In this document: positions 4,454 through 33,605 of the stretch, piece by piece | How the letters are laid out: every line of letters begins with the position of its first letter | How positions within the stretch are numbered: position 1 is the first letter of the stretch | Origin: a virus | Length of the DNA stretch: 33,704 bases | Virus record (IMG/VR): IMGVR_UViG_3300030019_000553 | Location: 1 to 33,704 of that record | Direction: 5' to 3' (one strand) | Made by a program: the position numbers and the translations under genes | The notes under the pieces: model-generated | Told to the model about the DNA's origin: nothing | Seen by the model: only the letters and a program-made list of their open reading frames with translations | Databases searched by the model: none

Positions 4454-5437
4454 ATGAAAAGACACAATAACCTATACGAACAGGTATGCAGCGAAGATAA
4501 TATGGTTCTCGCTTGGGAGAAAGCCCGAAAAGGTAAAACGAACACTTACGGTGTTAGGCTCTTTGAAAAGGACTTGGAAAATAACATGAGACAGTTGAGA
4601 ACTGAATTGGTAAACGGAACTTATAGAACTTCAGAATATAGCGTGTTCACGATTTATGATCCAAAAGAACGGGAGATTTATCGACTTCCATTTCGTGACA
4701 GAGTAGTTCACCACGCCATCATGAATGTAATGGAGCCAATATGGACAAGTATTTTCATTCAGCATACTTATAGCTGTATAAAAGGACGTGGAATACATGC
4801 CGTTTTAAAAGCGATTAAACGGGATTTAAAGGACGTTGAAAATAAACGTTACTGTCTGAAAATGGATGTACGGAAATTCTACCCAACCATTGATCATGAA
4901 ATACTGAAAAACATTATCCGGCGAAAGGTAAAAGATAACCGACTACTTGATTTGCTTGATTTGATTATTGACTCCGCTCCAGGAGTTCCAATCGGAAACT
5001 ATCTGAGTCAGTTTTTCGCTAATTTGTATTTATCATATTTCGATCACTGGTTGAAAGAAACGAAGCAAGTAAAGTATTACTACAGATACGCCGACGATAT
5101 GGTGATACTTGCACCGAATAAAGCATATTTACATGGATTATTGAACGAAATAACCGAATATCTAAGCAATGAACTCAACCTGAAACTAAAGGGCAATTTT
5201 CAAGTGTTTCCGGTCGATTCTCGCGGCATTGACTTCGTTGGTTACAAATTCTATCACACGCACATATTGATGCGTAAATCGATTAAAAAACGGCTTTGCA
5301 GAAAGGCTGCAAAGTTGAATAAAAAAGATATTGATGCTAAAAATTACAAAATGCAAATTGCTCCCTGGTTAGGATGGGCTAAGCACTGTGACTCGAAGCA
5401 TCTACTTAAAAAAGTATTGAATGAAAAAATTCTCTGA
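4454..5437 (+). CDS. DGR-type reverse transcriptase
   Basis: A 327-residue reverse transcriptase. The catalytic YADD lies at residues 212-215 and motif A (KMDVRKFYPTIDH) lies upstream, with the catalytic Asp in KMD. Residues 180-186 read IGNYLSQ. The form [IVL]GxxxSQ in motif 4 is the hallmark separating DGR RTs from group II intron and retron RTs. Length and the absence of maturase, endonuclease or extra N-terminal domains also fit DGRs. In a DGR this enzyme, with an accessory protein, copies a template RNA with errors at adenines and the cDNA replaces the variable region of a target gene. The candidate target lies immediately upstream and a small protein overlaps the 3' end by 17 bases. The start at 4454 precedes the conserved N-terminal domain. 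Confidence 0.92.
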   Translation: MKRHNNLYEQVCSEDNMVLAWEKARKGKTNTYGVRLFEKDLENNMRQLRTELVNGTYRTSEYSVFTIYDPKEREIYRLPFRDRVVHHAIMNVMEPIWTSIFIQHTYSCIKGRGIHAVLKAIKRDLKDVENKRYCLKMDVRKFYPTIDHEILKNIIRRKVKDNRLLDLLDLIIDSAPGVPIGNYLSQFFANLYLSYFDHWLKETKQVKYYYRYADDMVILAPNKAYLHGLLNEITEYLSNELNLKLKGNFQVFPVDSRGIDFVGYKFYHTHILMRKSIKKRLCRKAAKLNKKDIDAKNYKMQIAPWLGWAKHCDSKHLLKKVLNEKIL

Positions 5438-7613: not shown

Positions 7614-8039
7614 ATGAAAATTTACATTGCATCAAGTTGGAGGAATAAACATGGAGTTCAAATGCTTACGACTATTCTAAGGGAAAAAGGTCATGAAGTA
7701 ATTTCATGGATAGAAAACTGTAATCAAGAAGGGAATAAGCAATTCATTTTTGAAGAATGGATCAATACAACCGAAGCAAACGACTGCTTCAATTTTGATA
7801 TTATTGGAGCTACAACAAGCGATTTGGTTATTTATTATGGTCCCGCCGGAAAAGATGCATGTGTAGAAGTTGGCGCTGCTTGGGGGTCTGGAATTCCAAT
7901 AATTGGCATATATGCAAAAGGGGAAGACTTAGGTCTTATGAGAAAATGTATGAGCTTCTGGGTTGATAATGTGTATAGACTTCTTGAATTGATAGATTTA
8001 TATATGACTGATGGAACAACATTACACAGCCAAAAGTAA
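7614..8039 (+). CDS. Nucleoside 2-deoxyribosyltransferase-like protein
   Basis: A 141-residue Rossmann-like protein. The N-terminus KIYIASSWRNKHG is typical for the 2-deoxyribosyltransferase family. A second segment, LVIYYGPAGKDACVEVGAAW with GSGIPIIGIY after it, contains the Glu-x-G-x-A region in which family members carry the catalytic Glu. The fold breaks the N-glycosidic bond of deoxynucleosides or, in the DNPH1/RCL branch, of deoxynucleotides. Phage copies are thought to serve nucleotide salvage or modified-base pathways. It overlaps the next gene by 29 bases and is followed two genes later by a HAD phosphatase, which points to a nucleotide metabolism cluster. Substrate unknown. Confidence 0.75.
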   Translation: MKIYIASSWRNKHGVQMLTTILREKGHEVISWIENCNQEGNKQFIFEEWINTTEANDCFNFDIIGATTSDLVIYYGPAGKDACVEVGAAWGSGIPIIGIYAKGEDLGLMRKCMSFWVDNVYRLLELIDLYMTDGTTLHSQK

Positions 8040-31931: not shown

Positions 31932-32056
31932 GGGGTTGAAAATAACCCCGGTCATATTGGAGCCTCTGACCTCTCCAACATATAAAATTCGAATACACCG
32001 CATACCCAGGGTTTAATATCCTTGGTGCGGTGTATTCGCATTTTAAGTTGTCAGAG
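31932..32056. repeat. Structured intergenic region with nested inverted repeats
   Basis: The 175-base gap 31925-32099 contains a small stem GGGGTT/AACCCC (31932-31949), an outer pair CTCTGAC (31964-31970) and GTCAGAG (32050-32056), and within it a perfect 12-bp stem GAATACACCGCA (31991-32002) and TGCGGTGTATTC (32026-32037) that extends inward with one mismatch. The long stem is not followed by a strong T-run, so simple termination is uncertain. It separates tail genes from the DNA-modification genes and may control their expression. No ORF of note lies in it. Confidence 0.7.
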
Positions 32057-32099: not shown

Positions 32100-32927
32100 A
32101 TGAAAAATTTCAATCAGGCTCCCCTGCCATTTCAGGGGCAAAAGCGGAGGTTTCAAACCTCCTTTAAAGAGGCTTTAAAATGTTTTGAAAAGGCTTCGGT
32201 ATTTGTAGATTTGTTTGGTGGTAGCGGTTTGCTAAGTCGGTGGGTTAAGGAAACATACCCGGACGCCAAAGTAGTGTATAATGATTTTGATGGATACAGC
32301 AAGCGAGTAGCCAATATAAAACGTACAAATGCACTATTGGCAGACTTTCGCGTCATTCTGAGCGATGCTCCTGTTGATAAGGTGGTGAGTAAAGATGCTA
32401 AAGCGGCCATCCTGAAGGCCATTAAAGCTGAAGAAAAAATAACCGGTTATGTAGATTATATCACTATCAGTTCAAGTTTGTTATTCAGCATGAATTATGC
32501 AACTACTTATGAAGAGATGGAAAAGCAAACGATGTATAACTGTGTACGAAAGAATGATTATGAATTGGCGGACGACTATCTGGACGATGTGGACATTGTT
32601 CGCATGGATTACAGAGAGTTATACGATCGTTGGAAGCATATACCGGGTGTTGTATTTCTTATTGATCCACCCTATTTATCAACGGATTGTTCAACATACG
32701 GAAATTATTGGAAGTTGGCTAATTATCTGGATGTATTGTCGGTATTGAAAGGAACTAATTACTTCTATTTCACGTCTAACAAAAGCAGTATATTGGAGCT
32801 TACCGAATGGATAGCAATGAATCTGGGCGGTGATGATTCATTTGCTGGTGCTCAACGGGTGGATATCAATTCACGAATGAATTATAATGCGGGATATACT
32901 GATATAATGCTTTGGAAAAAAATATGA
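32100..32927 (+). CDS. Dam-type DNA adenine-N6 methyltransferase
   Basis: A 275-residue alpha-class adenine methyltransferase. FNQAPLPFQGQKRRF at the start is motif X, DLFGGSGLLSRWV is motif I (SAM binding) and FLIDPPYLSTD carries the catalytic DPPY (motif IV). It would methylate adenine at N6 in a short recognition sequence that cannot be read from the protein. No restriction enzyme accompanies it. It overlaps the next gene by 4 bases (ATGA), so the two products are translated together. Mu carries its mom modification gene at the same right-end place. Confidence 0.92.
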   Translation: MKNFNQAPLPFQGQKRRFQTSFKEALKCFEKASVFVDLFGGSGLLSRWVKETYPDAKVVYNDFDGYSKRVANIKRTNALLADFRVILSDAPVDKVVSKDAKAAILKAIKAEEKITGYVDYITISSSLLFSMNYATTYEEMEKQTMYNCVRKNDYELADDYLDDVDIVRMDYRELYDRWKHIPGVVFLIDPPYLSTDCSTYGNYWKLANYLDVLSVLKGTNYFYFTSNKSSILELTEWIAMNLGGDDSFAGAQRVDINSRMNYNAGYTDIMLWKKI

Positions 32928-33559
32928 ATAAGTATCACAAAATATTAGATAAGGTACTGAATAATGGAAAAATTCAGACAAATAAGAAAGGAAATATACG
33001 TTATTTGCTGAATGAACAATTGCAATTGAAGGCAGATGATTTGTTGGATATATTCGAAGGTCATTCTATTGCTCGTAATAAATTGAGAAGTGAGCTTCAG
33101 CTGTTTATGTCCGGTGAAAGATTGACAGAAAAGTATCGTGAAATAGGTGTAAACTGGTGGGATTATTGCGGTCCTATATTAGTAAATAGTTATCCAACTT
33201 ATTTTGAAAAGTTACCTCCATTGATAGCTAAAATCAATAAAGAAAGACGAAACAGTAAAAATTATGTTTTGTTTCTTGGTTCAACAGATGTAGAAAGCAA
33301 TCAGTCTCCTTGCTTGAGTCTTATTCAATTTCAGATAGATGATGACAAGTTAGTTGTTAGCGCTTACCAGCGCAGTTGTGATGCTAATTTAGGGCTTCCG
33401 GCGGATATTTATCACTTGTATCTTATATCCAGACAAATTGACTTTCAATTAAAGTCAATCACGCTTAATATAGGTAATGTTCACATATATGAGAATAATG
33501 TTGAGTCCACTAAGCGGCTTCTCGATGGTGAAAATGTTAGGTTTGAATTGAATGTATAA
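32924..33559 (+). CDS. Thymidylate synthase homologue with Asn-to-Asp substitution, candidate dCMP (hydroxy)methylase
   Basis: A 211-residue protein if started at the ATG that overlaps the Dam stop (ATGA); an ATG at 32912 would add four residues. It aligns with thymidylate synthase: YHKILDKVLNNG at the N-terminus, SELQLFMSGE (E. coli Glu58 region), VNWWDY, active-site Cys130 in SPC, QRSCD at 149-153, LGLPADI, and HIY at 187-189. The spacing from Cys130 to Arg150 (20) and to Asp161 (31) equals that in E. coli. E. coli Asn177, which selects dUMP, is Asp161 here. T4 dCMP hydroxymethylase has Asp at this place, and the Asn-to-Asp change turns thymidylate synthase into a dCMP methylase. The paired Arg of the phosphate site (SRR) is replaced by SKN, and the usual C-terminus is shorter. 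Substrate is predicted, not shown. Confidence 0.75.
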   Translation: MNKYHKILDKVLNNGKIQTNKKGNIRYLLNEQLQLKADDLLDIFEGHSIARNKLRSELQLFMSGERLTEKYREIGVNWWDYCGPILVNSYPTYFEKLPPLIAKINKERRNSKNYVLFLGSTDVESNQSPCLSLIQFQIDDDKLVVSAYQRSCDANLGLPADIYHLYLISRQIDFQLKSITLNIGNVHIYENNVESTKRLLDGENVRFELNV

Positions 33560-33565
33560 ATTGAT

Positions 33566-33605
33566 AAACAAATTGTGCGTGATTATTTTCATGCACAATT
33601 TGTTT
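33566..33605. terminator. Hairpin at the end of the modification operon
   Basis: AAACAAATTGTGC (33566-33578) and GCACAATTTGTTT (33593-33605) form a perfect 13-bp stem with a 14-base loop, 7 bases after the stop of the thymidylate synthase homologue. It very likely ends the transcript. Only a short T-run follows on the + strand. Confidence 0.7.

Follow-up and report, generated by a model that had tools for sequence, protein, structure and literature searches.

In gp42, the dCMP hydroxymethylase of phage T4, Asp145 is essential, its proposed role being activation of the water molecule from which the hydroxyl derives; Tyr96, Cys148 and Asp179 are needed as well (PMC6400193). In thymidylate synthase (TS) homologues Asp at position 177 is a known dCMP determinant; in MetaGPA no other positions distinguished the TS homologues of cytosine-modified contigs as well as 177 and 147 did, and Asn-to-Asp mutants of TS yield 5-methyl-dCMP (PMC8670742). 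Among Bacteroides phages, inducible Hankyphage is present in B. thetaiotaomicron strains (PMC12135933). Hankyphage p00 encodes a protein annotated as thymidylate synthase (DAC76694.1, BK010646), a gene that is not mentioned in the Hankyphage literature searched. Our literature search on Bacteroides or Mu-like phages found no report of a dCMP hydroxymethylase, of dCMP activity or of modified bases, in agreement with an earlier note on this DNA, which held modified cytosine to be unreported for Mu-like phages of Bacteroidales.

A TS-like gene in a Hankyphage-type phage

The window, i.e. the whole stretch of 33,704 nt that was analysed (IMG/VR record IMGVR_UViG_3300030019_000553), belongs to a Hankyphage-type, Mu-like transposable phage. 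Its left edge falls within MuB and the left phage end is absent. Identity to Hankyphage p00 amounts to 41% for MuB, 37% for the terminase, 27-34% for portal and head proteins, 51% for the methyltransferase and 77% for the TS-like protein. A Mu-like phage of Bacteroidota, for which the earlier note gave Bacteroidales, is supported. The features of the window are collected in Table 1.

Table 1. Features of the window, with positions counted from its first letter
Feature	Position	Strand	Basis
Reverse transcriptase	4454..5437		PF00078, PHROG 1423
C5-cytosine DNA methyltransferase, 574 aa	5742..7466		PF00145, PHROG 116
Nucleoside-deoxyribosyltransferase (NDT)-like ORF	7614..8039		PHROG 12607 (E=7.6e-14)
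Strong hairpin 3' of the tail-gene block and 5' of the D12/TS-like pair	31985..32043	+	-30.9 kcal/mol, z=-7.3
D12-class (N6-adenine type) DNA methyltransferase, DPPY motif	32100..32927	+	PF02086 (5.3e-10), sequence
TS-like gene (predicted dCMP C5-methylene transferase), 211 aa	32924..33559	+	PF00303 (E=1.6e-20), active-site alignment, 77% identity to p00 'thymidylate synthase'
Cys130 codon TGC, catalytic nucleophile (E. coli Cys146)	33311..33313	+	sequence, alignments
Asp161 codon GAT (E. coli Asn177, T4 gp42 Asp179)	33404..33406	+	sequence, alignments
Intrinsic-terminator-like hairpin 3' of the TS-like gene	33566..33605	+	17-bp stem, T-rich tail; fold z=-7.3

The TS-like ORF starts with ATG and its reading frame is open throughout. 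The start codon overlaps the TGA stop of the D12 methyltransferase gene (ATGA), an arrangement that suggests translational coupling of the two genes. The strong hairpin upstream of the pair has no T-run of a classical terminator and did not come up in the terminator scan; it may set the pair apart as a transcription unit of its own. In profile searches the TS-like protein matched PF00303 over residues 3-203 with 73.8 bits against a cut-off of 24.3, and PHROG 160 with E=6.9e-30, both matches spanning almost the entire protein. Its structural model has the TS fold (best Z 17.7, rmsd 2.9, 200 residues); confidence in the model is low at residues 78-89 and 121-128, which are loops of the active site. 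Membership in the TS family, as proposed in the earlier note, is supported. The structure search was unable to separate TS from hydroxymethylase: gp42, which has MilA as a PDB match, was not among the 50 PDB entries listed, which is uninformative since TS entries filled that list.

The reverse transcriptase lies in the left part of the window genome, whereas in p00 the reverse transcriptase of the diversity-generating retroelement (DGR) is located near the right end. The NDT-like ORF adjoins the C5-cytosine methyltransferase gene. In other systems, hydrolases of this family (MilB, DNPH1) have modified pyrimidine nucleotides as substrates. A MilA/MilB-like pathway was set aside here, the match of the ORF to PF05014 being weak (E=0.003, below cut-off); neither p00 nor the searched flanks yielded a homologue of it.

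The residue at the Asn177 site and its surroundings

Using PDB and MAFFT alignments, Cys130, Arg150 and Asp161 of the TS-like protein were found to align with Cys146, Arg166 and Asn177 of E. coli ThyA, and their 20/11 spacing is identical to that of Cys148, Arg168 and Asp179 in T4 gp42. The register given in the earlier note, which had equated the spacing with that of the E. coli enzyme, is therefore right, and its central claim, that Asp replaces the dUMP-selecting Asn, holds as well: no other residue occupies the Asn177 site in the alignments. Asp161 is kept in all 73 distinct homologues, window and p00 included, and is invariant in the alignment. A local mutation of the window contig is ruled out, since all 73 share the Asp.

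As in E. coli ThyA (numbering of that enzyme), the TS-like protein has Glu58, Trp80, Tyr94, Cys146, Gln165, Arg166, Ser167, Asp169, His207 and Tyr209, and it shares the fold, the nucleophile and the YQRS.D..LGLP core. The catalytic set Glu58, Tyr94, Cys146, Arg166, Ser167, Asp169, His207 and Tyr209 is invariant or nearly so across the family. In contrast to ThyA, Asn177 is replaced by Asp, His147 by Leu (Ile in one relative shown) and Trp83 by Cys, the loop after Trp80 is shortened, and the C-terminal lid of TS is missing, the segment beyond about residue 230 being nearly gone. The Leu143 site carries Gln127, which is invariant in the family. The ThyA hallmark, Asn at 177, is replaced by Asp in every homologue examined, and the NCBIfam TS equivalog models gave 32-58 bits against cut-offs of 108-576, every one of which was failed.

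The phosphate-site Arg pair (Arg126-Arg127) was likewise said to be changed. The change itself stands, SRR having become SKN, with an uncertainty of one residue in the alignment register. Arg109 and Lys112, both invariant and basic, sit in the loop of the lost pair. The altered pair does not favour dCMP: at least the first Arg is retained in T4 gp42 and in the other phage enzymes with Asp177 that were examined.

The protein resembles T4 gp42 in the Cys/Arg/Asp spacing, in Lys21 at the Arg21 site (Lys28 in T4), in an equivalent of Tyr96 and in its short C-terminus. However, Gln stands in place of the T4 Asp145 (site 143), the T4 phosphate pair Arg123-Arg124 is absent (SKN instead of SRR), and sites 147 and 165 hold Leu and Gln rather than Thr and Met. 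Judged by these residues, the enzyme is not a T4-type gp42; with the dCMP-selecting Asp present but the T4 hydroxylation residue absent, it would represent a different solution. Asp143, Thr147, Met165 and Arg126 are common to the T4-like enzymes and the Asp177 enzymes of phages Clock (Microbacterium), nattely (Enterococcus) and GodonK (Gordonia), and the Asp177 enzyme of Edwardsiella phage PEi20 has Glu143. In a Microbacterium phage with an Asp177 homologue, genes for a glycosyltransferase, a kinase and MazG are nearby.

Family spread and linkage to DNA methyltransferase genes

A scan of viral sequences yielded 80 contig loci with a TS-like gene, with Asp at the site throughout. dN/dS was about 0.02-0.06 for pairs with unsaturated dS, indicating purifying selection. 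A chance match or a frameshift artefact is ruled out by the profile scores, the conservation of the family and this ratio. A scan of GTDB genomes gave 272 matching stretches. The best 80 of the 272 lie in Bacteroidota genomes, mostly of Bacteroidales (Prevotella, Bacteroides, Alistipes), but also of Flavobacteriia (Chryseobacterium, Mesonia, Halpernia). Of 296 sampled genomes of the phylum two had the gene, and the sample had been centred on one of these; such scarcity is expected if the element is mobile. A genome of B. finegoldii (G001; L263, L272) and one of Paraprevotella clara (G002; L262, L273) each hold two distinct copies, probably from two related prophages.

The family is isolated, as the closest phage sequences outside it are ThyA-like proteins of about 27% identity. 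In a phylogenetic tree it falls on the ThyA side with a support of 99/97, but on a very long branch. A single Asp177 clade was not rejected by the AU test (p=0.28), and a reduced set gives one at 64/92. Searches meant to widen the tree gave four loci for relatives of Enterococcus phage nattely and one locus for those of Microbacterium phage Clock. The differing residues around it suggest that the Asp may have arisen independently of the other Asp177 enzymes.

A D12 methyltransferase gene homologous to that of the window accompanies the TS-like gene on the same strand in 127 of 160 loci. It precedes the TS-like gene in 68 loci, as in the window, and follows it in 59, as in p00, where the TS-like gene is likewise at the right end; judged from a quickly built TS-like protein tree, the order has switched at least nine times. 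The two genes mostly overlap or are separated by 30 nt or less. Where this D12 gene is lacking, another D12 methyltransferase gene is found directly upstream in three loci and an N6/N4 methyltransferase gene (PF01555) in one. Seen from the D12 side, the TS-like gene is present at 53 of the 86 viral loci with this D12 family, in a set that partly overlaps the first. Many contigs, the window included, stop no more than a few hundred bases from the pair. The pair, newly described here, is thus compact, occurs in both orders and is often at the right end of the phage. The recurrent linkage of the TS-like gene to methyltransferase genes of several subfamilies supports a role in DNA modification; two unrelated anti-restriction genes at a common cargo site would give a similar picture. 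The TS homologues of the MetaGPA study also combine Asp177 with a changed residue 147, but they co-occur with carbamoyltransferases, deaminases and pyrophosphohydrolases instead of D12 methyltransferases (PMC8670742).

An HTH-like protein whose match to the Mor family is weak and below threshold is encoded by a gene of some 80 codons, which lies at most 400 nt upstream in 68 of 161 loci and up to 1500 nt away in 47 of them; the gene is absent from the window. The protein corresponds to PHROG 17790 (for example at 1180-1419 of locus L086) and is encoded upstream of most TS-like loci. Its position recalls the way in which mom of Mu is controlled by an activator. Mu keeps mom at its right end, and the com/mom module is comparable in consisting of right-end modification genes of a transposable phage, with the small HTH-like gene often upstream of the D12/TS-like pair, but the chemistry is different. 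No homologue of Mom was detectable at the right end of the window, where only the PF00303 and PF02086 proteins are found.

Proposed function of the TS-like protein

From the computed fold family, catalytic residues, Asp, selection and pairing we infer substrate, product, incorporation and an anti-restriction role. With moderate confidence we take the TS-like protein to be a dCMP enzyme giving 5-hydroxymethyl-dCMP, which would be partially incorporated, in a right-end anti-restriction cassette with the D12 protein. A compact, probably dimeric TS-fold enzyme would bind dCMP, Asp161 pairing with N3/N4 of the cytosine. The substrate is proposed to be dCMP because the retained His187/Tyr189 and Arg150/Ser151 favour a mononucleotide and Asp161 favours cytosine. 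Cys130 would form a covalent adduct with dCMP, and the methylene of 5,10-methylene-tetrahydrofolate would be moved to C5. Without the TS lid, water would most likely quench the exocyclic methylene, giving 5-hydroxymethyl-dCMP (alternatively 5-methyl-dCMP). Host kinases would then take the modified nucleotide to the triphosphate, some modified cytosine would enter newly replicated phage DNA, and hence possibly the virion, and the TS-like and D12 proteins would act against host restriction, their genes occupying the site that mom has in the Mu genome.

T4 needs kinase, dCTPase and glucosyltransferase-type partners for complete base replacement. Among the scanned ORFs of the window, which lacks the left end, no dNMP (dCMP/hmdCMP) kinase, dCTPase, glycosyltransferase or deaminase turned up, nor did one in the annotation of the complete p00 genome or in the part of it that was scanned. 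With Gln at the Asp145 site, the Arg pair lost and no partner enzymes found, complete replacement is doubtful; modification in Hankyphage-type phages, if real, is probably partial or dependent on host kinases. The idea of a dCMP-modifying enzyme put forward in the earlier note thus gains from the family-wide Asp, the loss of His147 and the methyltransferase pairing, and loses from the Gln, the missing Arg pair and the missing partners. The Gln and the lost Arg pair also mean that another product or substrate could apply.

The enzyme might instead be a dCMP methylase, the methylene intermediate being reduced by hydride from tetrahydrofolate to give 5-methyl-dCMP, as in the engineered Asn-to-Asp TS (PMC8670742). 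The ThyA-like YQRS.D..LGLP core, the placement of the clade on the ThyA side in the first tree and the absence of the hydroxylating Asp145 of T4 all agree with this reading, which we consider unlikely, as Trp83 and the C-terminal segment, which close the site for hydride transfer in TS, are missing. Hydride transfer is impaired without the lid, and for this reason 5-hydroxymethylation is ranked above methylation. Since the window phage also encodes a classical C5-cytosine methyltransferase, 5-methylcytosine in phage DNA alone would be no proof of activity of the TS-like protein.

A rather improbable option is that the TS-like and D12 proteins form an undescribed two-gene system that works without a T4-style kinase or dCTPase: either the TS fold would act on cytosine of the DNA polymer, or modification of nucleotides would be coupled to that of DNA. 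An auxiliary TS raising dTMP for phage replication would fit the TS fold and the annotation in Hankyphage records. We regard it as very improbable, given that Asn177, His147, Trp83, the Arg pair and the lid are all altered despite purifying selection, that the NCBIfam scores fall far short, and that each of the 12 host genomes tested has a complete ThyA of its own, so that the phage gene supplies no missing function. No more plausible is a TS-fold enzyme that modifies cytosine within DNA, perhaps at a site presented or marked by the D12 protein. The loss of the phosphomonoester-binding Arg pair, the tight methyltransferase linkage and the failure to find nucleotide-level partners would suit it, but His187/Tyr189, which contact the free 3'-OH in TS, and Arg150/Ser151, which contact the 5'-phosphate, are conserved, and we know of no TS-fold enzyme that acts on polynucleotides. 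An idle or regulatory TS relative, retained as a moron for some other reason, is likewise very improbable; it could account for the changed phosphate loop and the shortened active-site loops but scarcely for direct catalytic residues that are invariant or nearly so.

Phages of the Hankyphage type are among the most widespread of the human gut. Their TS-like gene is filed as thymidylate synthase, which, from the residues described, is probably a misannotation. What appears to be new is a dCMP-type TS homologue, its product predicted, in Mu-like phages and joined to a DNA methyltransferase gene. If a modified dCMP is made, Hankyphages may carry modified cytosine, and work on Bacteroides phages, be it on host restriction, sequencing or engineering, would have to be read differently. 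It would also mean that transposable temperate phages, whose replication uses host enzymes, can modify cytosine at the nucleotide level without the full T4 toolkit.
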